From assembly GCF_032854445.1 (NCBI RefSeq), contig NC_088300.1, forward strand, positions 53,356,984 to 53,420,983: 64,000 nt of DNA, read 5' to 3'. This DNA comes from Liolophura sinensis (taxonomy: Eukaryota; Mollusca; Polyplacophora; Chitonida; Chitonidae). The position numbers and the translations under genes are program-made. Shown here in pieces: positions 3,001 to 58,434 of the stretch (position 1 is the first letter of the stretch; the number at the start of each line of letters is the position of its first letter). The notes beneath the pieces are model-generated. The model saw only the letters and a program-made list of their open reading frames with translations. It searched no databases and was not told the DNA's origin.

Positions 3001-4110
3001 AATAAAACTTGTTAGCATCATTTATCACCCAGATTACAGGTCTTTTTTACTCCAGTAAAGCTGTACAGTGCGGTTCGAGCTGGGCAGATCTAACTCCGAC
3101 TGGTTAGGCATGTTCCTGTCACTGACAGAACACTAGTGTATACAGGTATAATGTAAACCAGCCAGTCTTAAAGAAGTCAGACTCTTGCAAAAGCTATGAG
3201 CAGTTACTCCTCGTGAACACACAACGTGTGGTATGCTCTAAACACATGTGAAAAATAGAGCCTGTCAAAACAGGAGGCATTCCCAAACCAATTAATTAAG
3301 AAAAGCATTTGGTAAATTTGGAAACGGCAGCAACTCTATCCCTGATGGGTGTGCACCATCTTACGCACAGCTTCAGTGTTCAGCAGAGAATTGCTTTTTT
3401 ACACAAGCATCCAAATTTTCTGTGTTTTCTTTTGCTATTTTTCCACTTGACTTGTTACATTCTCAGGAAAGATGTGCTAAGATCATGTCAACCACTTCCT
3501 CCCTTACATCTAACTCCTGCATGGATTCAAGATTGGGAAGACAGATGATGGAGCACAAGCTTGGAGGATTCCATAAGTACATGTACTAATCATACTACAA
3601 TTTGGCTTCAAAGAATTCCCCCAAATGCAAAATTGTTCCATCAAGAGAGATTCTTAAGGTCGTACCATGCACGCACAAAAGAGGGCGAGTTGAAAGGAGA
3701 GGAAGAGTTGTGTAATTGTAAATGTATTGTTTTGGCATATTTCCTGGGTAACCCTGATTTATGATTGAGATAAATATGACAAAACTACACATGCTAGAAA
3801 AACATGGCAGTCATTGGTAGATATTTTGTTTCACGTCAAAGTACATGTAATACCGAAGTGTAATTGAATCAGTTTGGGCAATAAGCACAAAGCAGAAAAT
3901 TTTCAACTGTTATTGTGATAAGATGTGGCATCATTTTAAAATGGCCATCTATATAATTAATCATTGTTTGAGGGAAAATTCAAATCTGCATGTTAGTGGA
4001 ATTAGACAGTTTTCTATGATATAAAGGCATGTATGTGTAAACAGAAGCTAAGCTAATGTTGGGTACTGTTTAGACATAATTTTCCTCTTAACTTAAAATG
4101 AAATACAAAC
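1..4110. other. LRP5/6 intron 3 (or flank), no exon recognised
   Basis: No open reading frame here matches LRP5/6 downstream modules or any other family that I recognise on either strand. The short ORFs at 492-761 and 3309-3764 show no domain and look like chance. The stretch is AT-rich and dotted with TACATGTA-type palindromes, for example around 1235-1255, 2165-2175 and 2617-2632. By inference it is the intron after LRP5/6 coding exon 3. Confidence 0.6.
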
Positions 4111-4511
4111 CTTTTGGTTGTCGAAGAGCACTGTAGACATGTATATCCATGGGAGAAAAAATTTCACTTTGAATAACCTTTCGGTCTTGTCCGGTGACTT
4201 TGTTACAGGAATGGATAGACTGGGTCTGCCAGTCTGTCCAGTAAAGAGTGTCACCCAGCTGTGTCAATGCAAACGGATGTGCCAATTTCCCCTCGATCAC
4301 TGCACGGCGGTCACTCCCATCAAAGTTGCAACTGTTGATATACACCAACTTAGCATCCACCCAAAATATTTTGGAATCTTCATAATCCAGTGTTAATCCG
4401 TTGGGCCAGTGGATATTCGTGTTGACTATTACTTGTCGACTTAACGGGTTGCCGTCCATCCCAGCTCGTTCAATCTTGGGCATCTCTCCCCAATCAGTCC
4501 AATACATATAT
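4111..4511 (-). CDS. LRP6: LRP5/6 coding exon 3 (YWTD propeller 1, second half)
   Basis: The acceptor TTTAAG precedes 4511 and the donor GTTTGT follows 4111; the exon is 401 nt long. It encodes [20 protein letters not shown], then [14 protein letters not shown] and finally [15 protein letters not shown]. This completes propeller 1 up to the point where the family continues with an EGF-like module (NPC...). The intron between exons 2 and 3 is 528 nt and contains nothing that I recognise. Confidence 0.95.
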
Positions 4512-7500
4512 CTTAAACAAAAACCAAATAAAGCATATAAGAAATCAGAACACAAATCATGACATGTAACTTAGCACTTTGTAGCAAATAGAAATGATCA
4601 TGAAAAACTGACACACAAACAAAAAAGAAATGGCAGCTTGCATTGATAACAGAAATATGTGAAGCATTACCAGACACATGTACATGCATGTGGTTAACTT
4701 TCAGAAAGCATCCAATGTCAGATTTATTTCATTTTCGCCTTGCAGAAGAAAGTTTACACATAATGTATGTAATGTAAACATTCAGCAGTGTTGATCACAG
4801 AACAAAAATCAGCTTAAATTTGAATTTTATACAGAGGATCATCACCTTCTTATGTGCTGTCTGAAAATGTCAATCGCTATAAAATAACCATCAGATCTAC
4901 ATGTACTTGTATAGTTGATTTTTCAACTAAATTCCGAGGATAAACAATAAGTGTACTAAATATTGTGTAAATACTGTCTTGTTTTCCACTTAAATCCAAC
5001 ACTGTGTTAAAAATAAGATGTGTGATGGTTTAAGCATACCCATTGAGGGGATCCAGCGCAATGGCTCTGGGCTGGTCCAGATCTTCCCAGAAAAGAACTT
5101 TCCGATGGGATCCATCCAAATTGCTCACTTCAATCCGGTTAGTCTCGGAATCTGTCCAATACAACTTCTTTCCTAGCCAGTCACAGGCCAGTCCATCCGG
5201 AGAGACCAAACCAGTGGTAACAACATCAAGGCTTATTCTTGAGCCATTGATGTAAGTTCTTTTGATCATTTCTAAACTGACTTCTGTCCAGAAAACCATG
5301 CTTTCCTCATAGTAGAAATCCACGGCAGCCGCATCCTCCAGACCCCCAATAATAACAGTGGAATTCCCTTTGCCATTGGATACTTCAATTAGCTGGACAT
5401 CCCGGCGGTTGGCAAATAACAGGGAAGGATTTCCTACAACAGTCAAAGGGAGGAATTCAGATCCTAGTTACATGCACAGACTAATAATGAACATGTAGTC
5501 TAAATTGTAATATATGTAGCAACAAAGTGATATTTTCTTTCTTTGATGGCAAATGTTGACTGTCAAACAAGAAAACCAAAAATCAATAAATAAATAAAAA
5601 TTGAGTAAAAAAGTGTAGTGCTTTTGACAACAATCTACAATGTTGTTCTTTGTAAGCAAAATCAATTAGAGTGGCAAACTTTTCTTTTGCTAAGTACTAT
5701 GTATTTCGATTCAAAGATTTGTCAAAATTAGCCTGAGCCCTTTTTATTTAAATACATGATCCTGCAAATGAACGATACACACACAATGACATCTAAACAG
5801 CATAAGTAATGTACATAAATATTCAGGGTAGGCAAAGTTTCGTATACCTAACCTTACATGTATATATCGTTAATCCAATGGAAAGACAAACAAATTTTCA
5901 CAATATTTCAACACACACCTTAGCATACATGTATAAGAATGTGTGGTACATGTGTACCTTTACACGTCACAGTTCATGTGTTTGTATATCAAATACATAT
6001 GCAAGTATATATTAAAGAACTTTACATGTTAGAGATCTTAAGTATATATACCTTGCAAAAAGCATGTTCAACACTGCTCTATTACACATAGTAAGTCTAT
6101 GGAATACCATAACATGCCAGTTTTGGAGCATTTATTCTATCTAAATAGCATTTCATCAACATGTATACATGTTTTGTATGGGTAGGAAGCAGTACCAAAT
6201 AATAACAGTGACCATGCAGAGCCTCAACCATCGGGATAGAGGAGTGGCAGGAGGTAAATGGTATGCACAAGAGATAGGGAGCTGCCAGTTCCCAGTCTGT
6301 TCTTGAACCTGTCAAATGAAGTATGTCAATCTGCCAGCACCCATCTGCCAGCCAGAAAATCTGACATGTCCTATCAAGATAATGGCAGAGCTGGGCCATC
6401 AGCACAGCCCTGATCCTTACACACTAGGCTGCCTGGGTCAAGCCCACAGTTCTTCAGAGTCCTTTAATTAGCAACATACTCTTCCCATCTTTATCCCAGC
6501 CAAACCAGGAACTAACAGACCCCACTTTGTAAACACAAGAGCATTCATGGACCATCACAAGTTTACTTCAGTATATGGAAGTCAACCCTCGGTGAATTGC
6601 TGAATCCCAATCACTTGATACATGTTCATGTAACATCAAACTACATGTACACTACTCTAGAAGAAGGGTAGAAAGAACATCTTACTTTATCCACAAATAT
6701 AAACAGATCAAGTTCAAAAGTAAAACCTTAATTTTTCTAAACACAATGTTAAACTAAACTGTTCAAAAAATCAGGACTTTAACATATATAGCATACATGT
6801 TGATGTATTGTCTCAGAAGTAGAACTAAAATCGCTAGTCCAATTACCATCCTTACTTATACAATGGAAGTTACATGTAGGATAAAATTTTTTACACAGAT
6901 TGTGGAATCATAATCAAACCATACGTATGGAGAGAATGTAAACAGAGAATGTAAACAGACAACCTAGCAAACTGAAGAGCAGGTAACACATCAAGTCCTG
7001 AGCCATGCCAATCATGGAAACCCAACATGTTATATCCTCTAGTCAGCCGCAATGAATGATGACAGGCACATATAGGCATACTTCATAAAGCTGGGATCTA
7101 CATGCATACATAAAAATAAGCAGGTATTTTTGGCAGACTTAATAATTAAGAATGATGTTGGAAAAGGTGACATGACATTTTAAGCCCGCTAGGTTTTTAA
7201 CACTGTCAGTGTCATATTGCTTATGAAAGAGATGAATTGCTTGCCAGGTGTAACTTATTTCAGCCACAAAAACAATACATAAAACAGATGTAAACTGTTT
7301 AATTTCATTAACCAATTGAAATGATTACAATCTCTTAACTTGTCAAACTTCCACAAAGATATCACACAACAAACTAGAACAATGTTCAACAGTTTAAATA
7401 CATGTTGGTAACAATACATGTAGAAAGTTTCTAATTTCTTTGAACTATGCATTGGCCAAATTACACAACTGGATTCTTTTTATTTCCCACAAATAAATAT

Positions 7501-10500
7501 GGTAATTTTTAAATCAGAGATTTGGATGGACTGCGTTTTACAGGAGTCTTTATTTTGCATAAATGTATTAAAGAGCAATATGACAAGAGCCTGTGTGAGT
7601 GGATTGTGAAGCTTGATCTAAGTAAAGTGTACTCATCTTTACAATGTACAATCAACTGTCACAATGCTGACAGCGGATGCGCATAATCAGAACAGAAATA
7701 CTTCAAATCATACATGTACATCAATACAGAAATTAATCTGCATACATGTTTATGCATGTAAATGCAACAGATGGATGAGACAACTTAACAGATTACCCTA
7801 AGTCCTCAGTCTTTTCGAATATGAAAGATCGACATTCAATGTATGCACATTTTTAATTTCATTTTGAAGTCAAACCTACATTGATTGATCAGTTTCAGGG
7901 CTCCATAAAAAGTATAATTTTATGCATCATACAGCCAGTACATACGATATGGCATATAGTATAATGGGTACATTTCTCATGCATGCACTGTAATTCTTCA
8001 ATCTTTTCGCACATTTGCAAGGTATTTATTCAAGCATATTCTTAAAGCATTACTCTTGTATTGACTGACAAAATCATATTTTTTGTGAAGCCCTGAAATT
8101 GGCCAACCCAATCAAATGTAGTTTTGTTTACAAAATAAAAATTAAAAATGTGCATAAATTGCACTGAAGAGGTTGAGGAATTAGGGTACAATGTACAGCT
8201 AAACACAAAATACCAGAAACCATCAAGAAAACCATGTATGAAGTAAATTTCGTAAGCGCTGTAAGAAATCATCAGGTCATCACATAAAATAAAAGAGTAT
8301 GACATACACAATAAATTAAGTAATATATTTAACATTTTCTGTTAACCTCATCAAAATTTCTGGTCACGTATTCATTACTTGTTTTAAATTCTAACTGGCT
8401 GCGATCAGAATATGACAGTTAATTATCTACTCAACACTGCCTATGTAAGTAGGCAAATCCCACACAAAAAGCTGGGAACCAAGCAAGGTAAAAAAAAAAA
8501 AACTGCCAAAAGGCACAGGCTGAAATTATTTTACATGTATATGTCTTGAATGGTATACCCAGTGAACCAAGATATCAAGGAGCACTCATGCATCACAATT
8601 CCACTTTCACAGCGAACTATGGAAATGACCTGATCAGATTAGGAGGGCAGGGTAGGCTTAACCCGTCAAATTATACCTGATGATGCATCTCAGTGTATGC
8701 ATGGCTGGGATAAATAGGTAGAGCCAGATAAGATACTGATGTCAGATGATATGGCCAACACAATTAAGTTTTCTTTTTAATGCAGGCACAGTACATGTAC
8801 TTGACTCAATGCTAATCGTGTACTATGTGCAGTATGTATAAGTCTTATACAGGTAAAGTAAAGTGTAAATATGCAGTGAGACAAAATGTTTTTTTTTTCA
8901 CAAGCATATTTTGAAAAAGCATAATTCTGTAGCCAGACTCCAGATTATTTTGAAAGTTCAACTCAGTATGTGATGTACAAAAGCAACAGCACACAATATG
9001 TAATTGTTGCAAGCATGCTAACTTGTAACTACATATATTAAATATGAAGTCTGACTTCATAACTGAGGTCAGTCTTTATCAAAGCCTAAAGCACACCTGT
9101 TTTTCTTGCTCATTAAGGTTCACAGCATACATTACCATATTTTAATATCGTAATGCATGTTAATGTATGTCAGCATTCTACATTTTCCAACAGGGCTTTC
9201 AGCTACCACATACAAGTATGTGAAAATAACAATTGTACACATTCTAAAATAATACTGACATGGGCTGAGTGTCTTTGGAACATTGACTATAAACACAGAA
9301 TAACATGCCAACATTATCATGGTGGATTTAACTAGGTTTGTACAAGATTAGCCACTTCTCAAGAAACCGGCTTCTGTCTCAGTTATGATATGTACATGTT
9401 TCCATAAATCATAATTGTTTCCTCTACCTTAGTGTCGATGTGCAAAAGGCTGAGAACACATCACCACCTACACAGATGTAACAATGTACCTCTGGCTTCT
9501 ATGAGTCGCACGTAAGCGCCGCGAGAGTTACAATGTGTTATGGGTTCTAAATTGTTCATCTTGTGATTGAGGACATTTATCAGTAAACATTTTCAGAAAT
9601 AAGCCACGCAGCCATCCCAAAGTTGCACAGAATATCCCTAGCGTAAACGCGGACACCAAAAAATTCCACTGACCAGCTCTCCATTTCCCCGTTTTCGTCC
9701 TTTTTTCCATATTTCACACTGATAGCAGCAACAAAGGTCTCGAGGCTAGTCACGGGACTCAAACTCTCCCCTCTCGTGTCAACTGAAACCTTCACTCAAA
9801 TACGCACCTCCTGAGACCTGTTTTGTATATTGTGGTGTGAAATATGGTAACAAAAAAGGCGAACACGGAAAAAAGGAGAGCTGGTCAGCAGGATTTTTTG
9901 GTGTTGGTAAGTTTGTGTTTACGATAGTGATATTCTGTATAACATTGGGATGGCTGTATGGCCTTTTTTTGAAAATGTTTACTGATAAATGTCCTCAATC
10001 AGTAGATCGACATTTAAGAGCTCGCAACATGCTGTGACTCTCGCGGTACTTGTGTGCCACTCGAAGAGGAGAGAGGTACATTATTGCAACTAATCACCAC
10101 CATGGTTAAGTAAAACTTACTAAGCTGGTTGTCAGGCTCATAGTATCAAAATGCACAGTAAGCACATATTACAACTCAAATGCCTAGAGGCTTCCGGGCC
10201 CTGGTCAGCAAATATTCCAAATACACATGTTTTAAAACTGTCAAATTCATGCAACTTTCCACAAGATATAGAGCACATTACTGTACACGTGCAAGCCAGT
10301 CATAGATCCAGCAGGAGTGTCAGTCTGAATAACTCACAAACTTGTAATTTATCATGCAATTCATTAAAACATACATATACATGTTGCAGTACTAACTATT
10401 GTATTGATATTACTGCTACAGATATAAGAAATATGCCCCACTTTATCATACAAGGTTGTTCACAAATAATTCATACAAACTGGGTGTTGGACACATATAT

Positions 10501-13500: not shown

Positions 13501-15141
13501 ATTTCTATTGCAAAAGCAAAGGCAGGTGACGAAGACAATTTCTATGCATAGTCTTTGATGTTAACAAAGAGATATTTCCCCGTTTGAAGGGCTTAAGCAG
13601 GTTTCTCGTTCATAGGAGTTTGCTTCAGTACTAAAACACATATCATAAGTTTGGGGGATAACAAAGCATAGCTATTACTGTTGCAAAATTGTGTCTCACA
13701 ACTTGAAGGAGAGATGTTAGTTACTACATGTATGTAGATTTCATCAGCTTGAGGTACAAGTAAGTGGAGTTCTTATTCAAACCACCACCTGTTTCTCAAC
13801 ATGTCACCATGAGTGCTAGTCACTGGTTGTAGGTTGAGCAGCCATGATTATAGCGTATCCAAATATTACTGAACCAACAGTTTTATTTACAATCAAACAT
13901 TTTTATACATTTTCAAAAAGTCAGGTTGCAAGTCAGTTATTATAATGATGGTCTGTAACATTCAATTTGGTAGCGACAAATAAAGGGAATGTTCAGGGTC
14001 ACATAACCCTTGATTGTGACAAATCATAAAGACATGTATATTGATATACAGTTCAGAATATTTTGTGGATCGTAAGAAATCATCCAGCCTATGGTTACCT
14101 TAGATACATGTTATCCCTAAATTTGCATTTAAAAACTGTAAAATAGATGACTTCAACTACTGGACCAGTTGACTCATGTAACACTGTCGGGTCATTCGGG
14201 ACACCGGGTGGCAGTTGACTTGATACCTTTGACACTGTACCTGGGACAGCTCATTTCCATGTAAACAATTTACAAATCACCACAGTTACAAGTACATGAA
14301 CACTTAAGTGACATTTAATGTCTTAAACCTTGTAACTTAGCTACTAAAATATCACACCACTTTCTTGGTTTTGCTGCCATTATAATAATAATTCCTGAAA
14401 TGTGAAATAATATTTCTCTTTTCTACACAAAAAAAGAGAAAGAACAAATAACAGCAAATGAGATGGTGACATTTACCTCCACATATACTATCACTAACAA
14501 ACTTTAACACATAAATTACGTATTACGATGTGTACAGCAAGTGACAGCACTTTTAGTCGGTCAATCACGTGACAAACTGTATTATAACCTCCATTGCTGA
14601 TAATGCTACGATACAAACTAGACAGTTCATCATAATACTCTGCACACTGACACGGGCTTTAAATTGTGAGTCCAAATCCATTAAAACTTGGATAGAACAA
14701 CGCTCAAATAATGTGTTCACTATAGTAAGAGAAGGGCTGGTCTAAATTTAACTTGGTCACAAGTGGTCAGTGAACTGAGCCAGCCCAAGCCCAAGTGCTA
14801 CACTACAAATAAACTCTGCCATTTCAACATGGCCGACATGTGATAAAAAAATTCTCCTAAACTGCACAAAAACAACCGCATGACGTGAGCTGATCCCAAC
14901 CCTAAATTAGAGAACTGAAGAGGAAGAGAGAACGACAAGGAAAATAACTGTCAACGGACGATGTAATATTGTGTTCTGAAGCCGAGAACCGTGCCTGGTA
15001 CGTCAGTGTTTACAAGTCGGCGAGGAGCAAACAGCACAACATTATGAGCACTGAGTGCGGAACATCCTGCAAATCGTTCTACTTACCCTGTAAAACGTTC
15101 AGTATTGACCAGAAAACGAGTAATCCCAGGCCGAACTGCAT
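4111..15141 (-). CDS. LRP6: LRP5/6-type Wnt co-receptor, 5' part of gene (partial, three coding exons)
   Basis: LRP5/6 (arrow in flies) is a single-pass membrane receptor that binds Wnt together with Frizzled and recruits axin to start beta-catenin signalling. The exons 15087-15141, 5040-5433 and 4111-4511 join with phases 1, 2 and 1 and encode residues 1-283 plus one base of codon 284. Residues 1-19 form a hydrophobic signal peptide. The remainder matches the first beta-propeller of vertebrate LRP5/6, with LFANRRD at the start, [61 protein letters not shown] and SPMDIH. All junctions are GT-AG. The EGF-like module that follows propeller 1 in this family is not seen in 1-4110, so the gene continues past the window edge. 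LRP5 and LRP6 are vertebrate duplicates, so here the name means the common invertebrate orthologue. The family assignment is very secure; the full gene structure is not visible. Confidence 0.95.
5040..5433 (-). CDS. LRP6: LRP5/6 coding exon 2 (YWTD propeller 1, first half)
   Basis: The exon has a TTGTAG acceptor just before 5433 and a GTATGC donor after 5040, and is 394 nt long. It encodes residues 19-150, starting with [17 protein letters not shown] and ending [14 protein letters not shown]. The YWTD-type repeats VFWTEVS and LYWTDSE are visible. The line-up with the start of the mature human LRP6 ectodomain is continuous, with no gaps that I can see by eye. Confidence 0.95.
9478..9717 (-). 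repeat. Inverted duplication, left arm (small ORF, frameshifted)
   Basis: Read on the minus strand, this arm aligns with 9831-10088 from TGTGAAATATGG through a shared stretch that encodes [14 protein letters not shown] in the plus arm, and into shared 3' sequence ending near AGAGGTACATT. This copy lacks 8 bases present in the other arm (after GGTGTC at about 9655), so its reading frame is broken in the middle. The two arms are separated by roughly 110 bp and could fold back on each other. The family is unknown. Confidence 0.75.
9831..10088 (+). repeat. Inverted duplication, right arm (intact 66-codon ORF)
   Basis: This arm carries an uninterrupted reading frame at 9837-10037 that starts with GTG, not ATG. 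It includes a hydrophobic segment ([20 protein letters not shown]) that could span a membrane, followed by [10 protein letters not shown] and a stop codon at the same position as in the left arm. Many differences between the arms change amino acids, so the sequence does not show purifying selection. It may be a piece of an unidentified gene or mobile element. I do not recognise the protein. Confidence 0.6.
15087..15141 (-). CDS. LRP6: LRP5/6 coding exon 1 (signal peptide)
   Basis: The reverse strand reads ATG at 15141 and encodes [18 protein letters not shown] before a GTAAGT donor at 15086-15081. The exon is 55 nt long and leaves one base (G), which joins the GA at the start of exon 2 to make Gly19. 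The -3 base is A, which favours this start. The peptide has a hydrophobic core and a plausible signal cleavage site near residue 19. The match of phase, the perfect donor and the placement upstream of propeller exon 2 make this the likely first coding exon even though it is short. Confidence 0.85.
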
Positions 15142-15400
15142 CCTAAGACGTTAGAAAACGTCCCGTAGAACGAAACAGAAGTACAGAATGCATTAAATTT
15201 TTCATAAACTAATGCCAACTAACGGTGAATGAAAGTTGCTCGAAGCCACAACTTGACGATCGAAGCTTACAACCCCTGGCGGACTACTTCCATAGGTCAC
15301 GGTGTATCCTTGCGCGGTCTGGCGCCCACAAGCATGTCAAACAGAAGGGGAAATAGAGCCATGTAAAGTATGGGCGATCTGATTTGACTTTTTATACGGC
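15142..15400 (-). promoter_or_regulatory. Presumed LRP5/6 5' flank
   Basis: This is the sequence directly upstream of the signal-peptide ATG on the minus strand. It is visibly richer in CpG than the surrounding DNA (for example 15255-15325) and has no clear TATA box. The assignment as promoter or 5' UTR is by position only; no transcription start can be read from the sequence. Confidence 0.3.
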
Positions 15401-15933
15401 TCAAAAATCACATTATTCATTTAGAAAGAGAAAGCATACTCTGAAACTATAGACAGAAAAAGCGTTTCTGGTGAGATCAGTAGGTATATGGGAGCTCCAC
15501 GGGATACTGTCAGTTCCCCAAACCCTTCTCCCCCACTATCACTACATTCCCTAACCAGCTGCCCGTTTCCAAATATAAGCCTGTCATATGCCAAGAATTG
15601 TTCGCTTTCATTGGCTGTTTTCCAGGCTGATTGACAACACAACGCAAATTCTAAACCGTGTCAATTTTGACACGGCGCACAAAAACATGTGTAAACACAC
15701 AGAGTTCAGCCATATAAACCGTAGGCCAACCGAACATTGCATAGCCATCATAGACTCGTTTAATAACGATGGCTGTGTGAAGAAATATATTATTTCTTCT
15801 GTATCGAGTGATATTTTTTAAAATCACAAGTCTTGCTAAGTTGGCTATCAGGACTACAATTGCTTTTTCCCGTACTGAAACACAGACCTAATTAAAAGGT
15901 CAAATTTATTACTGTGCTTTAACTTTTAATATT

Positions 15934-16097
15934 GGGGGCCTCCGTGGCTCAGTTGGTCTGCCAACAACCTGCGGTGGTCGTGGGTTTCCTCCGGACTGTG
16001 CCTGGTTTCCTCCCACAATAATGCTCGCCGCACTCGTATAAGTGAAATATTCCTGAGTACGGCATAAAAGGCCAAATCAAATCAAATAAATAAATAA
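15934..16097 (+). mobile_element. tRNA-derived SINE, partial copy
   Basis: The copy begins with the tRNA-like head (GGCCTCCGTGGCTCAGTTGG, A-box region), jumps to the conserved body (GGTCGTGGGTTTCCTCC, GGTTTCCTCCCACAATAATG, GTATAAGTGAAATATTCCTG) and ends in (AAAT)n. The B-box segment present in the full copy at 58154-58413 is deleted. The family resembles the MetaSINE group known from molluscs and other animals; that name is from memory and not verified here. Confidence 0.85.
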
Positions 16098-16156
16098 CAC
16101 ACTTGGATTACATTGGGAGAAGTTTGATATTGTTCTGTTAAAGTATACCAGCGCCG

Positions 16157-16263
16157 TACATTTTTATTTCCTGTGTTTGTAGGATTGTATGTAAATCTCT
16201 GTTTTCTCGTCCAGGGGGTTGTGAAGCCAGATATAGTGTTTTTTGGTGAAGATTTACCCAGAC
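16157..16263 (+). pseudogene. Displaced copy of sirtuin exon 7 and its acceptor
   Basis: These 107 bases match the reverse complement of 25389-25495 with three differences. The segment includes about 54 bases of the 3' end of sirtuin intron 6, the acceptor (TCGTCCAG) and the first 49 or so bases of exon 7, which encode [16 protein letters not shown]. The exonic part is identical to the gene. Because intron sequence is included, it is a DNA-level copy and not a processed transcript. It sits on the opposite strand from the gene, just downstream of a SINE, and no other sirtuin exon is near it. Confidence 0.9.
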
Positions 16264-19200
16264 AGATAAGTTTTTTTGGATGAATTAATGTTAATAAATT
16301 TTAATAGGCATATTTTCCCATTATTATACAGATAAAACCAGCGTAGTTTATATTGCGAAGTTTACAAATCTGTAACTAAGACAAAATATGTTTTCTTCTA
16401 CATGGAATGATTAAGGTCTCTCACTTCAGTCCGCTCGGGTATACACTGGCTCGAACTGTACCTACAGAGTCTACATCTACATGAATACCAAGATTAAAGC
16501 AGATTAATTTGATAGGGCAAAGTAAAATTCTATGCACGTCATTTAAGAAAATTTCTATACATATTTCTTCATATGCGTGTAAGAATTTTGTATAAAATAT
16601 ATATCTATCCACAAAAAGAAAGAAAGAAAAAAAACAATAGTAATAATAATGAAGAAACATATGTGTATGAAACCCGAAAAAAGGAAATCTATGTGTGTTC
16701 AGTGAAGATTTTGTTGTTTTTATATTGTTTTACTGAAACTGGAAATTCAACACGGCTATAATATATATCAGCGGATAAAGCCTGTTCGTTTATGTTGTTT
16801 TTAATACGTTCTGCCCATCGTCCATCGACACTGGGTGGGAAATAATCTATATCCATTAAGATCACATGTACAAGTGATGGTTCCCGAATCTGCAACAGCG
16901 GGACATAACTCGTTTTGATAGTTAAAGTCTATGGCTGTAAAAGTTACTTCCCTTGAAAAGTGTAAATACGCACCTGGACATAATGATAAAACCTGCTACA
17001 CGAATAATCTCAGCTATATATGGCGATCACACCTAAAAGATCCGATCATAATGGAACTAGCGTTACGATCAAAGCACACCCCAGTCGATCATACATGTAT
17101 GTAAAACTTGACATAATACCGGTACACACTTTCTTGAGTGTCAATGCCATCAGCTGTATAACCAACAACTAAACGAGACCAGCTCAATCGTGACAATCGC
17201 AGTAAATTTGCAATTAATCTATCCAGCAAAACAGACATTTGAAAATCAGCCGCCAATCAAAATGGACGACAATTTATTCCCATTGGGATACCTGTACATT
17301 GTTCATATATAGGGTTTCCGAGAATTTCTCAAATATAATACCTATGGGAAATTCAAGAAACTCAATGAACAGCTAGACATCACATAAATCTTATCCACGG
17401 ATGTAGTGGAAATGAAGTAGGTTTTGTTGCCTTTCTGTCGACTGGGTCTTTATGAAGAATAGAAGTGTAGAGAAATCCGAAGTAGATATGTCCTTATACG
17501 ATACATGTATTTGAGTTAGACGCAAGAGTTGATTTTGAAAATCAAGTGAAGGCATACATTTGTCTGATCTCGAAAGAGTTTAAGCTGTCCAAATAGCCGA
17601 AAACTTGTTCATACAAGACGCGTCTCTAAGAAAATTAAATTGTTGTATATAAGACTATATGGAAATTCAATTTTAACCAGAAGTTTTAAAACAAGTCTTG
17701 CAAATATTTGAGGACACACTGACAATAAAGTGATGCCCAGCATCAATGTTGTAGTAACTTAAAACTGGTGTTATATATACCACGTAGTACCAGGCAAGAT
17801 TAGGAGATTGTATAGTATAATGCAGTTAATTTACTGTTCTTTAGATTAGAACATCGTTGCTATAATTGGCAAGTTAGTTTAGATAATGATCCCCACTCTT
17901 CAAACATCCATATATAGCCAGTTTACCATTCAGTCCAAATGAAATTTAAGGCATATGTGAACGGAAGCAGAGAAATAGGGCCTACATCATAATTGTTTAC
18001 AAACTGTTATGGTATCGAACAGTACACAGGAAAGATTGATACAGCAATAGCATATACCGTAACGAAGTTCTTATCACTAGAGACAATATGCTCCATTGAA
18101 TTAAAGTCAAAGAAAGGTAAAATATGAAGTAAGGTTCATCATGCGGACAACTGAAAACTGACGGTATCTAGGAATCCTGACGTGACATGACCTTTTTTTC
18201 TGATGTTTACCAGAAGAAAGGAATTTTGGGAACGTTATTTCATTAAAATTTTACTCATGGGTAAACAGTGTTATTCCAACATTCAGTGTCGTGATAAAAG
18301 TTGGAAGAACTTCCTGTGACGTCAGAGTTCCTAAACTCTGACAGTATGGTCCAAAAATGCCCAAAGAATTCAAATGTTTGAACGCCTTTAACTCTTGTCA
18401 CAAAAATCTAGAAGAAAATAAATGGAAGTACATTTGTTCCAAGTTTTAAGTGGTCTGTTTAGTGATGCTTACTTTGGTATCTAGAGGTCTTTTCCTTTAA
18501 TTTACAAAGGAATTTACAAGCACATCAATAATATAGTATAAAGCTGTTGTCATATGGGGATAACGCCATCCTGAGGAACGCCATACATGATGACAATCTG
18601 GTGGAACCCATGATCAGAGGATTGATGAACTTATTTAATTCGAGGATTAGGCAAAAGCCTTTAAGATATCAGCACGCCTATAGTCGTCGGCATAAATACC
18701 TCACATCAACTGCCATGCATGCACCTGGCATCCTTGCTGTCACAAGAGGTCAATTAAACCATGTAGCGGGAGCTATGTCTGGATTCGAACACGCAACATC
18801 ACTGGTCAGGGGCAGTTGCATCGTCTGAATTAATCTGTGCAGTCTGTAAACGGACCTTTAATTAATCGGAGGAAAATATGTTGTAATGATTGATGATATG
18901 TACAGCTTTTGAATTATGAAACAAATCTTCTTTCCTTGCAAATTCAGCAATTTTAAAAGAGAGTAAATCTCTAATATAACGATATATCTTCAGTGATACG
19001 CTTCTGTCAATTCTTATCAATGAGCTCTGCAAAAACTCATTGCTGAGGAGTATAAGCAATGTTATATCCATGGGCTATATAGTTAATTCAGGACATAGCC
19101 TCTTGTTGATACTTAAAACCTGACTCAGATAAAAGTTTTGCTGAAGCACACGCACGTAGTGTAAAGAGATGTACACATCCACTTATCATTTATCCAGACT

Positions 19201-20483: not shown

Positions 20484-20558
<75 letters not shown>
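20484..20558. repeat. (TA)n microsatellite
   Basis: About 75 bases of uninterrupted alternating A and T. Such tracts are length-variable and their assembled length is not reliable. Confidence 0.98.
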
Positions 20559-23116: not shown

Positions 23117-23515
23117 TCTGGAATCTTCCTCGGAACTGCTTTCTGATGTCTCCTCAGTACTACTGCTGCTACTGTCCTCTTTCTGGGCTCTGTACCCCTT
23201 CCACTGATACTCTTTACTTTTATGGGAACCTCCAAGCCTCGGCAATAAAGCTGTTCTTGCTCTTCCTGTGCTGGAAATCCGTCTCTGGTTAAAACATACG
23301 TTAGGCTTCTGCCCTTCTGATTTCGCAGAGTTCATTGTGTGGAGATGGCGTCTTGGAGGACTGATATCAGTGGGATTGATTGTGGTTGCAAGGTTACCTC
23401 CCTTGGATGCGCTGGAGCTGTGGTTACTTCCCTTAGGTGAGCTTGTTTCCTGTGTGGAACTGTCCTTCTGATCCTCTGAGGAAGGGTTGTTTTTATTACT
23501 TCCACCTACCCAGCA
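23114..23515 (-). CDS. SIRT3: SIRT3 coding exon 10 (Ser-rich tail, stop codon)
   Basis: The acceptor GTTTTAG precedes 23515 and the frame is open for 133 codons to TAA at 23114-23116. The product is rich in Ser, Asn, Lys and Arg, and ends in a run of Ser with Glu ([19 protein letters not shown]). Such a sequence is probably disordered and offers many acidic-directed kinase sites. Vertebrate SIRT3 has no such tail. The join is supported by phase and a good acceptor. Confidence 0.8.
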   Translation of the reverse strand, partial: CWVGGSNKNNPSSEDQKDSSTQETSSPKGSNHSSSASKGGNLATTINPTDISPPRRHLHTMNSAKSEGQKPNVCFNQRRISSTGRARTALLPRLGGSHKSKEYQWKGYRAQKEDSSSSSTEETSESSSEEDSR

Positions 23516-26500
23516 CTAAAACGTAAAATTACAAACAGAATAACTGCACAGGCAATTCTCACTCTCAGTATGAATTTTGTTAAAGAAAGATGATGCATCA
23601 TGAGATGACCTGAAAGATGTAACACAACACACAGATTTTTGCGTGTGTGCTAACATGGCTTCCTGCCACAACACTCCAAAATTTGAAATCACATCAATAT
23701 GTCCAAGTTGAAACACTCTGTGAAAAGAAAAACATAACAAGCCACAGCTTTTTTTATCCTTAAATATCTTGTCAGAATGAATCTTAAGTTATTCCAAGTA
23801 ACACTACTCATGTAATACATTACTAAAACTAGTTTAGCCTCAACACTGTGTTTCTGACAGAAAAAACACCTCAAAATAAGAAAAGCAGTAACATGAGACA
23901 ATAATGGTACGAACTTTGACATAAGGTACAAACCTTCTGTTGATCTTCACACTTAGAAATCAACTCTGACACTTCTTCCTCCCACTCCAGACGAGAGACA
24001 AATTTACGCACACTTTCTGTCAGGTCACCTATTGGAATATATATATTTTTGCTTTGGTGTTTTAGAGCAGCTTTAAAACATTGTCCTGAATCAAGCAGGA
24101 ATTTTAACCAGCTATAAGTATAGCACTTCAACCAAATGGTTTAATAAAAACAGCTATTACAGACTAGGGTAACCCAAGAAAACCCAAGTCCTGACTGGTT
24201 GGTTACGGTTTCCCATCACTTGCAATATTATCGCCATCATTTCACCATAATTCTTAATGGAAAAACAATGATGGTTGCAAAGCTAATATATACCTCTGCC
24301 TCACAGTAACACCGTACTGAATGCATCACACCTTAACCTCAATTAAAATTAGTTAACACCGTAAGAACCAGACTTATGCTGGTATCCGATCCCACTAATC
24401 CAAGTACCAAACCACTTATTTACTTGTTTGAAAAGGTTTTACACCTTTCTCTAGAATATTTTCATTATAAGATGAAAGGTGAAAAACTGTCAGTCTTTAG
24501 CAAAACTTGCTTCAGGATTTAACTACAAATGTTTAGTGTTCCACTCTGTAACCTCCTGGCCATCACAGTGTGGCCTGAGCTATATAATACACTTTCAAAC
24601 ACAATTTATTTGTTTATTTGATTGGTGTGTTATGCCGTACTCAAGAATATTTCAATTATACGACAGTGGCCAGCATCATGGTGGGAGGAAACCAGGCAGA
24701 GCCCAGGGGAAACACACGACCATCTGCTGGTTGCTGCTGGCAAACATAAGAATGTGTTTTGCTTTCTCTTGTATTTTACCTGTGTTCACAAAGTCATGAG
24801 CTCTTTTGCGGTGTCTGAAGGGTCCGACAGGCTCCATGTTGAACAATATCCTGGGCACATTATACCTTATAAGGTCAATAATGCCAGCAAACGGTTGTAC
24901 CTGTTGGGTGACATGTATGAGCAAGACTTAGTAAAACTGCTCAATGCATTACAAAAATGTGGAAAGCTTGGAACTGGTACTCATTTGCATATTATGGTAT
25001 CAGTGTCTTTCAGCTCATGCTGGGTAATCTTACAAAGAAGGCATCCATAAATCTGAGAATATTCGACGGCATAACATACTGATATCTTACTGTAGCTCAA
25101 CCTGACCCGAAATGATTTATTATTAAAATACTACCAGCAATATGTTAACATGATTGACATTTTACATAATACTCAAGAATATTTCATTTATGTGATAGTC
25201 GTCTAGGGTATGGATAAACGCTTCAACACAACATTAAACATTTGTAACAGGTTTAACATTAATTCATCCCAAAAAACTTATGATACCATGATCATGAAAC
25301 TAAGAACATGTGACAGTTACCTCTAGAGAAGTTCCCATGACAAGGACCAAATCTGCCTGTAGCATGTCCTTGAGGTACAGATAGAACCGTCTGGGTAAAT
25401 CTTCACCAAAAAACACTATATCTGGCTTCACAACCCCCTGGACGAGAAAACAGAGATTTACATACAATACCACAAATACAGGAAATAAAAATGTATATAA
25501 CACTTCAACAGAACTATATCAAACTTTTCCTAATGTAATCCAATTGTGTCAAGGAACATATGAGATAATATTTTGCTATTAGAGTTTTAATAGTTTGAAT
25601 ACATATAATGCTACATAAAAAGTACGTGAAATTCAATCAACTTACATACCGGACAGCCTTTCCGTTTACACTTTGGTATTTTGTTTAAAAATATGGCATC
25701 CTATAAAGAATACAAAGAGTATTTCACACATCTAATAATGGCAACCAGAACTGCTCAGTTTCAGCATTACCATATCATCTGAGGTGGACATTTGGCAGAG
25801 TTATACACAGACAAAAATGACCAATAACAAATACTATTAATTTATTGCACCTGAAACAGATATTACTTCCTTATAGATTCACTCAAAACTAGTCAAAATA
25901 AAGTTTATTATTCCTTTCAGACCAATAAAGTCTAACAAGTTAAAAACTGTGAAGGTGGCTTTGAGACAGGTTTCAGCTTATGGGAAGAGGGGCACTGAAA
26001 CCATTTTATTTGTCCCTGTTGCTAGGTAGCCTGGTGACTGCAGGCTTTAAGAAGATGTCATATATCTTGTGAAGCATGTGATTTGATAAGCAAGCTTCAA
26101 CAGGCACTTTTATGAACCAGTTCACAGTTTAGCTGGTTCAGGCCTATAAGAGTTTATACCATTAATAATGGCGATGCGCATAACCTAATAAATTAATCAG
26201 TTGTTTAGTAGAAACTTTACAAGCTGCAGCGATTGGCATAGATTTGGCATGACTACATTTAGAAATCTCTGACGTAGCTAAAGAATCTGTATAATACGTA
26301 ACTATGCAGTACTTGTGTCAAGCTGATCAATTGGATATACATGTTGTTAGTGGATAAAATATATGAGCACATGTACCTTGATTTCTTCTCCTTCATGCTT
26401 CTGATTACAGATAGTGCAGATTGCTGTAGAGAATGTTCCATGAGCCTCAACAAGTTTATGTGGAGGGATACCAGCCACTGAAACAAAGTATACTGACACA

Positions 26501-28714
26501 TGAAACACTGGGCAGAGATTTAATAGGAACAGGTCCCAAGGTTTGCACTGCCCCTTCAAAAGAATGACTGTAACACTAAGATCAAACTGTAGCGTCTGAT
26601 ACTATTCAACAAATGATTATTTTAACAACTGCTAGATGTATCAATGTGGATACATAACATATGATGCTTCATCTCTTCCATGAAGTTTATCAAAGCATAA
26701 GTGATATTGCTCCTCTCGGAAAATGACACATGTCTAATTAACTCCGTGTACAAAATTTGTTATGTACAGCATGTAAGCAATTATCAGTAGAACGACCATT
26801 CTTTAGTACAAGTATCTTACATCTTTCCAGACCGTCAATGTTCTGTGTGTATATCCGAAGTAGTTGCCCCTTGTCATGTAGCATCCTCATAAAGTAATGC
26901 GTATAATTCGGTCGATATTTGCCGGATGGATACAGCTCTTTGGCTAGACAAAAGAACGGCTTAGGGTCATGGTGAAAGTAGTCAATATCAAAGATGGCTT
27001 CTGGGTACGGGATATTGTATTGCTGTAAATTGTCATATAATCCAGAGCCAGGTGTTCTGTGAACAAAATGATCCACACAAAAATTTAACATTTCTCAATT
27101 TCCCTATCATGTGACTAAAGCTTTGAAGAACATACATGTATTAAAAAGTAAATAAACATAGTGTAGGTTTGCCATGAACTAGCGATATGTGTGATGGTGA
27201 ATGTTACCAGTCAACTTATTGTAGTATTACCAGAGTATAATACACTGCAAGAATTGACGTTATTTGTATGCATGGGGTTTTACAATGTAGTTGACTTTAT
27301 ACATGCAGAAGATAGACAAACACTATCGTACCTGAAATCTGGAATGCCACTGGCTGTACTTATACCAGCCCCTGCACATACCACAATTTTCTGGGCCTGA
27401 CCAAATTTTATGAATTTAACAACATCAAGATCTGATTTGAAGGATGTAATTTTCCCTCCTGTAGAAGAATATGGTCTTTGTCTGAAACAGAAAAAAAAAC
27501 ATTTTAATTATCATACATGATAAATGATCTCCCTCAAACCCTTTTTTCCTTATTTATTTATTTGATTGGTGTTTTACGCCGTACTCAAGAATATTTCACT
27601 GCCGGCCAGCATTATGGTGGGATGAAACCAGGCAGGGAAACCCGCAACCATCCACAAGTTGAAATATTCTATAAGACTTGGCATTATGACAAAACTGAGA
27701 AGTTCCTGAAACCATTTTTTCCACTTGCCTGCCTGATTTGTTTTTGACACTTAGCTTGGCCTCCAATATTCTCCCTTTCTTGTTGTTTAGCGATAGGTTA
27801 CTGACTCCATCAACAAGTGTATTTTCTGGTGCTTTATACACTGGGCTGCTTCCTGTTGTTAACAGCCTTGCTTGTATCTTTCCTGTTCGACCGGGTAATG
27901 TAGATTTGGGTCTTTGAGGAAGGCCGCCTGAAACAATTAATAAAACCTAATTAATGTTAAAACAAGATGATGATCATCTGCAACTAAGTTATCCAGAATG
28001 ATCCGACTATATTTTTCAACTTAAATACTTCACTCACCATCAAGTGGATTGACATATTTAAAAAAATCCAAATACCAAACAAATCAATTAGTTGGACAAC
28101 TGTGGTGTCCAACAGCTGAACATACAGGTAGGTCAACATTAGCCTGAGAATCCAGGCTAAAAGATTTCTGCAATATTTCATATATGTCCCCATCTAGTGA
28201 GGGACTGTAATTACATGGACCAAGAATGTCCAACCCAGCCAGCATCCAGATTAGTAGTGCATGTATTTCCATGTTCACCCTTTTATTAATACAAGTATTA
28301 ATGAGGGAGTGAATGTGACAGTTTCTTATTTGTGCTTAGCATTCACATTTAGTGCATCTCTGGTACTAGAACAGCTTTTTTGCACATTTCCACGTCCGCT
28401 CCTCCAGATAAGGGCAGAATGTTAAATAATGAAGGAGGTCATTTATTTCGCTGAATTATCTTACTGTCAATTTCTATACAAAGTCCCCTTTTACGCATTA
28501 GCCAGAATAAAGAAAATCCCTACCGACCTACCTTATCTTTCTGATAGGGATGGATTAATCCCAACAAACAATTTCAACAAGGCCTTACAGTTACATCAAT
28601 TTCAGCTGACTGGAAATACTAGTGCAACTACACTCTGCTGCCCAAGTGGGAAGCGTGGCCTAGGTTACTGCTAACCATATATACAGGCACTGTACCTTTC
28701 CTTGATGAAGCCAT
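23114..28714 (-). CDS. SIRT3: SIRT3-type NAD-dependent protein deacylase (10 exons, 496 aa)
   Basis: Sirtuins remove acetyl groups from lysine using NAD; SIRT3 acts mainly in mitochondria. Ten exons (28696-28714, 27729-27927, 27332-27481, 26821-27056, 26377-26477, 25650-25700, 25321-25437, 24780-24900, 23934-24028, 23114-23515) join in phase. Visible motifs are [13 protein letters not shown] (residues 110-122), TQNIDGLER (193-201), the catalytic His in VEAHGTF (214), zinc cysteines 222/225 and 246/251, [16 protein letters not shown] (287-291) and the NAD-site Asn in LFNMEP (312). The core is closest to animal SIRT3 (for example LPYPEAIF-, NPKPFF- and KLVEAHGTF-like segments). The first 35 residues are basic with no acidic residue, as in mitochondrial presequences, but targeting is inferred. 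The C-terminal 133 residues are Ser-rich and extend past the usual sirtuin end. The family is certain; SIRT3 over SIRT2 is very likely. Confidence 0.95.
23934..24028 (-). CDS. SIRT3: SIRT3 coding exon 9
   Basis: The acceptor CCAATAG precedes 24028 and the donor GTTTGT follows 23934. It encodes [20 protein letters not shown] followed by [12 protein letters not shown], which matches the helical C-terminal part of the sirtuin domain (GDVVxxxxxLxxxLGWxxE pattern). Confidence 0.93.
24605..24738 (-). mobile_element. SINE 3' fragment in SIRT3 intron 8
   Basis: The (AAAT)-type tail, read as TTTATTTGATTGG, is followed by GCCGTACTCAAGAATATTTC, GTGGGAGGAAACCAGGCAG and the reversed body. The copy is in minus orientation and lacks the tRNA-like head. 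Confidence 0.85.
24780..24900 (-). CDS. SIRT3: SIRT3 coding exon 8 (end of catalytic core)
   Basis: The acceptor CCAACAG precedes 24900 and the donor GTAAAA follows 24780. It encodes [20 protein letters not shown] followed by [20 protein letters not shown]. Asn312 is in the position of the conserved NAD-contacting Asn of the LLIN-type motif. Confidence 0.93.
25160..25218 (-). mobile_element. Short SINE remnant in SIRT3 intron 7
   Basis: The segment TACTCAAGAATATTTCA followed by TTATGTGATAGTCGTC matches the body of the SINE family in reverse. Only about 55 bases remain. Confidence 0.5.
25321..25437 (-). CDS. SIRT3: SIRT3 coding exon 7 ([11 protein letters not shown])
   Basis: The acceptor TCGTCCAG precedes 25437 and the donor GTAACT follows 25321; 39 codons, phase 0-0. 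It encodes [20 protein letters not shown] and ends VLVMGTSLE. Part of this exon with its acceptor is copied at 16157-16263. Confidence 0.95.
25650..25700 (-). CDS. SIRT3: SIRT3 coding exon 6 (second zinc pair)
   Basis: A 51-nt, phase 0-0 exon between TTATAG and GTATGT encodes [17 protein letters not shown]. It supplies the second zinc pair as C-x4-C, two residues longer than the C-x2-C that vertebrate SIRT3 has here. It is too short to find by ORF length, but both splice sites and the flanking phases agree. Confidence 0.9.
26377..26477 (-). CDS. SIRT3: SIRT3 coding exon 5 (catalytic histidine, first zinc pair)
   Basis: The acceptor TTTCAG precedes 26477 and the donor GTACAT follows 26377. 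It encodes [20 protein letters not shown] followed by [13 protein letters not shown]. His214 is the expected general base; Cys222 and Cys225 are the first zinc-ligand pair. Confidence 0.95.
26821..27056 (-). CDS. SIRT3: SIRT3 coding exon 4 (TQNIDGLE motif)
   Basis: The acceptor TTCACAG precedes 27056 and the donor GTAAGA follows 26821. The exon encodes residues 123-202 with [51 protein letters not shown] and [11 protein letters not shown]. It carries the cofactor-binding Gln-Asn-Ile-Asp motif. Confidence 0.95.
27332..27481 (-). CDS. SIRT3: SIRT3 coding exon 3 (GAGIS motif)
   Basis: The acceptor TTTCAG precedes 27481 and the donor GTACGA follows 27332. The exon encodes residues 73-123 and includes [20 protein letters not shown], the start of the NAD-binding Rossmann fold with the flexible loop residues. 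Confidence 0.95.
27550..27661 (-). mobile_element. SINE 3' fragment within the SIRT3 GC-AG intron
   Basis: TATTTATTTATTTGATTGG, GCCGTACTCAAGAATATTTC and CATTATGGTGGGATGAAACC match the SINE body in minus orientation. It fills almost half of the 247-nt intron 27482-27728. Confidence 0.85.
27729..27927 (-). CDS. SIRT3: SIRT3 coding exon 2, ending at a GC donor
   Basis: The acceptor TTTCAG precedes 27927. The frame runs [18 protein letters not shown]... to ...KLSVKNKSG. No GT donor with good consensus gives the phase required by exon 3, but AG|GCAAGT at 27728-27723 matches the GC-AG donor consensus exactly and gives phase 2, making Arg73 across the junction. The exon is basic and probably disordered. 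An alternative weak GT donor (GTTTTG after 27696) is also in phase. Confidence 0.65.
28696..28714 (-). CDS. SIRT3: SIRT3 coding exon 1
   Basis: On the minus strand ATG at 28714 encodes MASSRK and ends with G before the donor GTACAG. The phase (1) fits exon 2, which begins GC after a TTTCAG acceptor, giving Gly7. The exon is only 19 coding bases, so the call rests on phase, donor quality and position. A transcript could show a different first exon. Confidence 0.6.

Positions 28715-41905: not shown

Positions 41906-41991
<86 letters not shown>
41906..41991. repeat. (TA)n microsatellite
   Basis: About 86 bases of uninterrupted alternating A and T. Confidence 0.98.
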
Positions 41992-45147: not shown

Positions 45148-45236
45148 TTAAAAAAAAACGAGTAACGGTTAATATATTTACGTTTCGACATTTCGTCGGA
45201 ACGTAAACATATTAACCGTTACTCGTTTTTTTTTAA
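45148..45236. repeat. Near-perfect palindrome with 43-nt arms
   Basis: The left arm (45148-45190) reads TTAAAAAAAAACGAGTAACG and on through GGTTAATATATTTACG to TTTCGACA. The right arm (45194-45236) is its reverse complement with two or three differences, leaving a loop of only a few bases. It would form a stable hairpin. Confidence 0.9.

Positions 45237-48334: not shown

Positions 48335-48375
<41 letters not shown>
48335..48375. repeat. (TA)n microsatellite
   Basis: About 41 bases of alternating A and T directly after the helicase fragment. Confidence 0.97.
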
Positions 48376-50456: not shown

Positions 50457-53200
50457 GTTAGCGGGCCATTCAAGAACGGCCCGCTAACACTGATGCAGCA
50501 AAGCAGGCCGCCTTGCTGGTGTATCAATTTATCCGCCTAAGCACTAATTCCACAACCTCACCGCCATCTGACAATTCTCCGTCAACTAAAGTTTGTCAGA
50601 TTTTGACAGCATTGGAAGTCCAACTGGAGGCACAGGCAAATAAGTTCACAGACATGGACAAGAAGACGGCCGAGTTACAGTTACAGAATCAGGAAACTGT
50701 GCCTGCGGCAAATGTTCGAGCTGCTCAAACACTGCCAGCCCTGTCAACCCTGCCAAATTTGCGGTAAATCTAACCATACTGCCAAGCCCTCTTGCCTGTA
50801 TACACGCGGCCCTCGTGACCAATGTTCCTCTCAACAGCCAACGAAGGTAACCGCAATTGCTTGCGCTTCAGCCAGCCTGATCACCAAGCCCGCAATTGTC
50901 CTGCGCCCGCTCCTTAAAACTGACTGCTTTTGGCCATTATGCTGCGTTTGTCGGAAATGGAAGTAATTTAGCCCCAGTTTCAAATGATACTGATAACAAT
51001 GTTATCAACAGTGAAAACGTCTTACTGAAAAATTTCATACATCTTAGCATTGGTAAGAATACTGTTCATGCTTTTGTTGATAGTGGGGCGGACTTAGGCG
51101 TGGTCAGTACAAAAGTGTTGAATTCATGTGAACCACTCAGTGACAAGAATGTCATAAACCGGATCATCTCACATTTTTATAGCAAATTCTCAGAAAACGT
51201 CAAATGTGGGTATGATACATCTTCAATCTACAGTGTGGAACACGGCTGTACATATCAAGTTTTGTTTAGTAGATGGGCTAAGCCCTGATTACATATTTGG
51301 TTTTGTTTTTATGATAGCGTACAATGTTTTGATTGATTATGGTAAAGGTAAACTTTGCCTTTATCCACGTCGCTACAGTTCTGCGTCAGCTGACTTTGTT
51401 GTACCTACTAAATCAGAATGAGTTGTTGTTGCTAGAATCAGAGGCCCTGCATTATCATGTAGTGGGTACAACAGACCTTCAGCACTCACTCAGTGAAGGT
51501 TTGTTACCAGGGAAAGCTGCGTGTCCTGTAAATACCGATACTGTTAAACATACATCTATCTGAGGAGCCTGTCAAAATCAGAAAAGGTACTGTGTTAGGC
51601 AGATTTGTGTGTTCGTAACCAAATGATGTTTCTTGCTTTGAAAATGACTCTTATAAAAAAGGAAACATCAGTGCTGCTGTGAATCTAGTGAAACTTGAGA
51701 ACTTGTAAATGAGGATGTTAGGAAACCAAATGTTGATAATTCTGTTAACGCTGTTTCACATGTTCCCAAGTCAGCATGGGTGTAGAAAATTCACCTGAAT
51801 CTCTCTGTGGTTTACCCTCTGAGTTACTAGATTTCACAATTAGTGATATCAGTCCTGAGCAATAGGAGAATATCAAAAGCTTAGGTGATGAGTACAGAGA
51901 TGTGTTTAGGACAGATTCTGAGTTAGGAAGGCGTGATATTATCCAGCATAAAGTTGAAATTTCTTCAGATACAAAGCCTATTCGTTTGAATGCTTATGGG
52001 ATACCATCACAGCAAAAGAAAGTTATTCTAGAAAACAGGATCAATGAGCTTGAATTACATGGTGTGATTGAAAACTCTGTGAGCCCGTGGGCTGCGCCCT
52101 ATTTACGTGAGAGAAAAAAAAGAAAGACAACAATTCTTTTTGCCTCGTTGTGGACCATTGTCGCTTAAATCAAGCTGGAATCCATGCATCCTTTACCTAC
52201 GACAGAAGAGTCTTTTCAAGGGCTTGGCGCTCAGAAACCGCATTATTTTAGCTGTTTGGACTTACAAAGTGGTTTTCACCAGTTAGTTATTGATGAACAG
52301 TCTCGCCTATTAACTGCATTCCGTACCCGCCTCGGACTACATGAATACAAAAAACTGTCGATGAGCATGAAAAATAGTCCAGCCACCTTTCAGCGTGTGA
52401 TGGAAGCTGTTATGAGAGGTTTAACATGGACTAATCTTTTGGTTTATATGGACGATTTGATCGTTTTTGGCCGGAACTTTGAAGATCAAATATTACACCT
52501 TGAGGAAGTGTTCGGTAGGCTCCCCTCAGCAAAACTGAAACTGAAACCACAGAAGTGCTTTTTCTTTGAACGGAAAATTCACTACTTAGGACATATTCTG
52601 ACGGTATACTTCCACATACCGCGTAAGTGTTTCCAGTTAGAGACTGTCCTGTACCCACGTGTATTAAAGACGTGTGTGTGGCTTGGCCTCTCCGTGTATT
52701 ACAGACGATTTATTGCTGATTACTCAAAGAATACCCACCCTCTGAACGGGTTCTTACAGAAAGGCACTCTATTTATTTGGATGCCGGAGCACCAGGCCGC
52801 CTTCGACCATCTTAAGGCACGCCTTACGTATGCTCCCATCACGGCATACCCTTATCAAAATTTGCCCTTCCGGTTATATACTGACACTAGTGGATTTGCT
52901 CTTGGGGCCGTTTTAACCCAGGTGCAAAATGGTACTGAACGTGTAACTGGCTACGGTGGAAGCTCGTTGAACGTCGCGGAACAAAACTATGGAATTACAG
53001 AAAAAGAGTGTCTGACACTTGTCTTTCGTGTTAAACATTTGGATTATCTGTTGCGCTGTTGCAAGTTTACGGCCACTGTTGATCACCAGACCATTGTTGA
53101 ATACAGTGGTTTCTCTCTATAAAAGAACCTTCCGGTCGTTTAGCGCGTTGGGTTGTCTTCTTCGAAGGGCCACAACCTTGTTTTTTTCTTGGGCGATACC
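50457..53200 (+). mobile_element. Ty3/gypsy-like retroelement, truncated and frameshifted
   Basis: In order, the segment shows a gag-like region (50513-50767), zinc-knuckle-like cysteines (about 50745-50900, split between frames), an aspartic protease motif with D-S-G-A (about 51076-51108), the start of reverse transcriptase (51902-52168), the main reverse transcriptase part (52184-52500) with the YMDD active site near 52447, and an RNase H region starting around 52870 (LYTDTSGFALGAVL). At least four frame breaks separate these. No integrase follows RNase H and no LTR pair is recognisable. It is an inactive fossil copy of an invertebrate retrotransposon. Confidence 0.88.
52184..53122 (+). pseudogene. 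Reverse transcriptase / RNase H fragment of the retroelement
   Basis: A 312-codon open stretch carries the RT core (FSCLDLQSGFHQ, NSPATFQRVMEAVMRGL, LLVYMDDLIVF, KCFFFERKIHYLGH), the connection region (WLGLSVYYRRFIADYSK) and most of RNase H (LYTDTSGFALGAVL, YGITEKECLTLVF). The upstream part of RT sits in another frame at 51902-52168, and RNase H continues past the 53122 stop in a shifted frame. The local family order RT then RNase H is that of Ty3/gypsy. Confidence 0.9.
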
Positions 53201-58413: not shown

Positions 58414-58434
58414 AAAAAGTCAAATTTCAGGCTT

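Follow-up and report, generated by a model that had tools for sequence, protein, structure and literature searches.

A SIRT3-like gene fragment joined to a SINE tail inside a direct repeat in Liolophura sinensis

How did a piece of a sirtuin gene that keeps intron sequence come to lie, inverted, about 9 kb from its source locus? We addressed this question within a single stretch of 64,000 nucleotides from one haplotype of Liolophura sinensis, called the window below. The initial annotation of the locus had described a match of 107 bases between 16157-16263 and the reverse complement of 25389-25495, with three mismatches confined to intron and with exonic part and acceptor site identical. Alignment bears this out: the mismatches fall at 16175, 16181, and 16183, all intronic, and neither the acceptor AG (16213-16214) nor the exonic stretch differs from the source. 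The copy had also been placed right after a SINE, and it does follow one directly, the SINE running from 15934 to 16095 or 16096 with its tail complete and the 5' end of the fragment abutting the end of that tail. The copy is longer than had been supposed, however, and the clean end within the exon is not borne out.

The copied fragment and its source gene

BLAST and long-gap alignment extend the copy to 16097-16294, matched to source positions 25549-25253, and the 107-base match is the middle part of this wider one, which greatly exceeds chance (E 1.3e-52, and 2.9e-60 for the long-gap alignment). The copy contains the end of an intron, the acceptor, and the first 49 bases of the exon, where it breaks off and picks up again in the following intron, leaving out about 105 source bases that comprise the rest of the exon, the donor site, and the start of the next intron. 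It stands in gene-sense orientation with intron sequence retained to either side of the exon, and it contains four T-runs of 4-7 bases. Overall, 9 of 184 ungapped sites differ from the source (Jukes-Cantor distance 0.051). Read in the frame of the exon, the copy follows the source for 16 codons and reaches a stop after 22. As it lacks the source donor and meets an early stop in frame, the fragment looks like a dead relic, ordinary in kind though unusual in anatomy, and no function is evident. The parts of the structure, together with the features used for comparison, are collected in Table 1.

Table 1. Features of the insert at 16 kb, of its source, and of related SINE copies, in window positions
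Feature	Position	Strand	Basis or remark
Left target-site-duplication candidate, 12 bp, TAACTTTTAATA	15920-15931	+	11/12 match to 16295-16306
SINE with tRNA-like head (by eye), intact 5' end, and full CAAATAAATAAATA tail	15934-16096	+	
Copied upstream intron, distal part	16097-16144	+	source 25549-25502; 5 mismatches in 48
Indel region	16145-16156	+	9 bases in copy only, 3 in source only (alignment)
Copied proximal intron with acceptor AG	16157-16214	+	source 25495-25438; 3 mismatches
Copied 5' part of sirtuin exon	16215-16263	+	source 25437-25389; 0 mismatches
Deletion junction	16264-16265	+	about 105 source bases missing, roughly 25282-25387 (alignment)
Copied downstream intron	16266-16294	+	source 25281-25253; 1 mismatch in 29
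Right target-site-duplication candidate, TAAATTTTAATA	16295-16306	+	begins at the base following the copy end, 16294
SINE copy within the SIRT3-like gene, gene-sense; comparison copy	24604-24737	-	
Old SINE 3'-end remnant, same family, in source intron, gene-sense	25151-25191	-	about 60 bp beyond copied segment
Source segment in SIRT3-like gene: intron, exon 25321-25437, intron	25253-25549	-	alignment, SIRT3 search
Comparison SINE, intact 5' end, perfect 11-bp direct repeat at ends	58155-58410	+	

The source exon, as read from the sequence, is 117 nt long (39 codons). Minus-strand sirtuin exons lie at about 27.4, 27.0, 26.5, 25.4, 24.9, and 24.0 kb, the one at 24.0 kb being weak (E 0.11). Two translated stretches of the gene find sirtuin-3 as the closest among solved structures, and one stretch matches Pfam SIR2. 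A search of the window with a human SIRT3 catalytic-domain query gave strong matches to the exons of this one minus-strand gene and to 22 aligned residues at 16200-16265 only; the remaining matches had E of 0.11 or more. The possibility that the copy belongs to a second full sirtuin gene at 16 kb therefore finds no support with this query. On the other side of the copy, the nearest recognized gene is of LRP type, on the minus strand at 5033-5467 (Pfam Ldl_recept_b). Its matches with the lowest E-values in the PDB are to LRP4 and LRP2 chains, which contain many such repeats, and the best single-propeller chain is that of LRP6. A further minus-strand stretch, 4091-4570, likewise reads by eye as LDL-receptor-related (YWTD propeller) exon sequence. 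The sense strand of the copy is opposite to that of both flanking genes.

Other features of the window lie apart from this locus. An imperfect palindrome of 618 bp at 9474-10091, which matches its own reverse complement at about 72% identity, is perhaps a foldback or MITE-like element, and smaller self-complementary stretches occur at 45148-45236 and 56955-57119. The plus-strand open frame at 52169-53119 carries Pfam RVT_1 and RT_RNaseH_2 domains and is probably the remnant of an LTR retrotransposon, while the one at 60061-61935 (+) encodes 625 residues with C2H2 zinc fingers. Perfect AT dinucleotide arrays are found at 20484-20558, 41906-41991, and 48335-48375.

The exonic part of the copy had been read as a possible sign of a recent event or of gene conversion, since it is unchanged. 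The unchanged exon calls for neither, and we reject the argument: changed sites number 9 of 134 outside the exon stretch and 0 of 50 within it, where the final G of the acceptor is counted in, and this difference is not significant (Fisher p = 0.116). The longest identical run, counted across the gap, covers 91 of the 184 sites (P = 0.016 by permutation, for a run chosen post hoc). There is no sign of conservation of the exon stretch. As for the missing 105 bp or so, cryptic splicing was rejected as the cause, the junction being without GT-AG. Skipping over an RNA hairpin was rejected as well: folding of the source RNA is no stronger than that of its shuffles (z = 0.03, 48/100), and the edges of the gap are unpaired with each other in the predicted fold.

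The SINE, the direct repeat, and their relative age

Relatives of the SINE occur at 24.6, 27.6, 30.7, 58.3, and 58.5 kb, with shorter partial matches elsewhere in the window, and inverted copies lie near both the copied fragment and its source. The five relatives have the 3' part and tail in common, and one of them the 5' end as well: the start GGGGGCCTCCGTGG seen at 15934 is kept by a single other copy in the window, and 58155-58410 is the only other SINE found with its 5' end intact. Relative to that element, the SINE at 15934 has an internal deletion of about 98 bp at a GGT/GGT microhomology. ARAGORN, and Rfam at its gathering threshold, reported no tRNA or family over the window, and the description of the head as tRNA-like is a reading by eye, as is that of its Pol III boxes. 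Exact patterns of the SINE 3' end had no match in the genome contig set and none in the viral contig set. At 58155-58654, two SINE copies stand side by side in opposite orientation, and the repeat of the first is AATCAAAAAGT.

A direct repeat of 12 bp brackets the SINE and the fragment together, its left version ending two bases before the SINE. The two versions combined read TAA(C/A)TTTTAATA; the repeat is imperfect by one base, and it is AT-rich. Among 63,988 positions on each strand, the 12-mer occurs on the plus strand at 11/12 or better only at 15920 (12/12), 16295, and 55496, and on the minus strand it does not occur at that level. With boundaries movable by 2, an 11/12 repeat was found in 17 of 17,010 AT-matched windows, which overlap and are not independent, and in 74 of 20,000 random AT-matched pairs. 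Under a null with looser positions, 62 of 2,174 AT-matched windows equaled or exceeded the observed score, as did 14 random windows and 25 shuffles in sets of 4,000 each. In a control scan of the five other SINE copies, whose ends are approximate, a perfect 11-base repeat was present only at 58155-58410; the SINEs at 24.6 and 58.5 kb had repeats of 8/9, and those at 27.6 and 30.7 kb had none of note. A second, shorter repeat flanks the fragment alone, AATAAAT at 16089-16095 and 16293-16299. It is a low-complexity 7-mer, and repeats of this type were present in 285 of 8,525 AT-matched windows.

Over the shared 3' part, 17 of 131 sites (13%) in the SINE at 15934 depart from the majority state among the five other copies, a count to which misalignment in the tail may contribute; the corresponding figures for the other copies are 12/125, 13/131, 12/128, 16/133, and 6/81. 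Because this figure stands against 9 of 184 for copy and source, which moreover includes the changes of two lineages, the SINE may predate the fragment, unless it came from a parent that had already diverged.

One insertion or two

The fragment begins where the SINE tail ends, runs in gene-sense orientation, retains intron sequence to either side of its exon, and lies within a direct repeat. Our tentative preference, held at somewhat less than an even chance, is for a single retrotransposition event that inserted the SINE and a fragment of unspliced SIRT3-like pre-mRNA as one unit. A LINE reverse transcriptase would have nicked the target at about 16 kb and copied an RNA made up of a SINE with its natural tail, on the 5' side, and of sense-strand SIRT3 sequence (source 25549-25253), on the 3' side; repair would have left the 12-bp target-site duplication around the whole insert. 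One insertion by a LINE enzyme is the simplest account, and it covers the sense orientation, the retention of introns, the joining of the fragment to the SINE tail, and the displacement of the repeat. The 12-bp repeat starts right after the copy, while the same left flank compared with the end of the SINE tail alone gives a best match of 4 bases; the tail is complete and the fragment adjoins it directly; and the other SINE with an intact 5' end, at 58155-58410, has a perfect 11-bp repeat. On this reading we infer that the repeat is a true target-site duplication, that the two parts came in together, and that the agent was a LINE. The template switch or repair insertion suggested by the initial annotation pointed in the right direction, with retroposition of unspliced pre-mRNA as the best fit. 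Its argument that kept intron rules out a processed retrocopy holds for a copy of spliced mRNA and does not extend to a retroposed pre-mRNA that was never spliced.

The way in which the two RNAs came to be joined could have been a jump of the reverse transcriptase, ligation of RNA, or a read-through transcript (3' transduction), for which a SINE would once have been present in the sirtuin intron and have been transcribed together with the fragment. Jumps within that one reaction, or deletions at a later time, may account for the missing stretches of about 105 bp in the fragment and about 98 bp in the SINE. In this haplotype the sequence from 25550 onward, just upstream of the source, holds no parental SINE, which counts against 3' transduction, as that process would need one. 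The four T-runs count against a read-through SINE transcript, such runs being expected to stop RNA polymerase III. The fragment ends without poly(A) or a SINE-like tail, 16294 running directly into the right-hand repeat, and no LINE or SINE 3' end is present on the priming side of the insert, which ends in SIRT3 intron and then the repeat; both points tell against the single event. The lack of a tail of a kind that LINE enzymes are known to favor counts against a template jump; it is speculation that the old SINE 3' end beyond the source segment drew the enzyme to the RNA.

The divergence of the SINE and the nature of the two repeats also tell against a single event, which has a strong rival. 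Under this alternative, which we consider a serious possibility if a less probable one, the SINE came first with its own target-site duplication, and a SIRT3-derived patch, either reverse-transcribed pre-mRNA or DNA, entered its A/T-rich tail later, for example at a break, in the manner of a templated sequence insertion. The SINE, at 13% from its majority, looks older than the fragment, whereas a single event implies either that its parent had already diverged or that misalignment of the tail inflates the count. The 7-bp repeat surrounds the fragment alone, in keeping with its separate arrival in the tail, the fragment itself joins two separate pieces of the source, and A-rich tails attract insertions. 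The 12-bp repeat is AT-rich and imperfect, and the duplication of a SINE split by a later insert would give the same bracketing pattern. Yet if the 12-bp repeat is the duplication made by the SINE, the patch must lie exactly between tail and duplication, the 7-mer is of low complexity, gene-sense orientation would be chance if the patch was DNA, and two events are required.

An origin through DNA only, in which template switching during replication or break repair between loci 9 kb apart pasted an inverted copy with no RNA involved, perhaps aided by the inverted SINE copies near both places, would suit the shared neighborhood, the inverted orientation, and the joining of two pieces across a skip of about 105 bp. 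The source breakpoints at 25549 and 25253, however, fall outside recognized SINE sequence, and such an event accounts for neither the 12-bp repeat nor the precise joining to the SINE tail; we consider this origin improbable. The copy had also been read as a possible trace of a larger rearrangement, for which we find no support: a comparison of 14500-17500 with 23500-27500 gave no homology past 25549 or 25253 other than the SINEs and short matches at chance level. A larger segmental duplication is rejected on the same ground, the flanks of the copy being without homology to those of the source. An assembly artefact or a misjoined haplotype is very improbable in view of the 9 differing sites in 184, the indel of 9 and 3 bases, the gap of about 105 bp, and the direct repeat that encloses the structure.

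If the single retrotransposition event is the right reading, a scrap of a gene can move while unspliced and with its splice acceptor intact, and kept introns need not mean duplication at the DNA level. Should many SINEs here carry such pieces between tail and target-site duplication, they would repeatedly supply material for exon shuffling.

Relation to known chimeric insertions

Two familiar products of retrotransposition offer a first comparison. Retrotransposons that carry out 3' transduction leave the order element, unique sequence, and target-site duplication, and the order of SINE, unique sequence, and repeat seen here is like it. Unlike such a product, the insert has no parental SINE beside its source, and the T-runs in the fragment are of the kind expected to terminate transcription by RNA polymerase III. 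A processed pseudogene, or retrocopy, is a transcript-sense copy of a gene with introns removed. The fragment is also a transcript-sense copy of gene sequence, but it keeps intron sequence to either side of the exon and amounts to only about 190 bases.

Closer parallels are found among templated sequence insertions (TSIPs) in human, of which class 1, as characterized in PMC5110952, has a target-site duplication and poly(A), and class 2 has neither. Insertion at a TTTT/A-type LINE-1 site is a further mark of class 1. The insert resembles class 1 in having its template elsewhere in the genome, in including intron, in the LINE machinery inferred for it, and in a direct repeat at the junctions, which in that description is at least 5 bp and here is either 12 bp (11/12) around both parts or 7 bp around the fragment (PMC5110952). 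It differs from that description in lacking an added poly(A) after a polyadenylation signal, in being attached to a full SINE tail, and in having its source only 9 kb away (PMC5110952). A class 2 insertion, or break-repair patch, is likewise short and templated elsewhere, and this likeness suits the two-step explanation; class 2, however, is described there without a target-site duplication, and a 7-bp repeat of uncertain meaning flanks the fragment here (PMC5110952).

Chimeric retroelements made by LINE template switching, with one target-site duplication around the joined RNAs, are described for Magnaporthe and for mouse B2-U6-L1 (PMC2104539). Human Alu/L1 and mRNA/L1 chimeras also show a single duplication around joined RNAs, and both template jump and RNA ligation have been proposed for LINE-1 chimeras (PMC13174262). 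The insert is like these in the direct joining of two RNA copies, as we read it, in transcript orientation, and within a bracketing repeat (PMC2104539, PMC13174262), and like mouse B2-U6-L1 it has a SINE at the 5' side (PMC2104539). It is unlike the chimeras described in PMC2104539, which have a LINE or SINE 3' end on the priming side, in having an internal gene fragment there. On the boldest reading, a LINE enzyme would have primed on internal, untailed pre-mRNA and then jumped end to end to SINE RNA, skipping internal stretches of each, and SINE activity could in this way scatter exon-plus-intron pieces with intact acceptors, an exon-shuffling route in an order reversed relative to the fungal and mouse chimeras of PMC2104539; we think this particular course unlikely. 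Set beside these systems, the insert is probably a retrotransposition accident of a known general type and not a working second gene.
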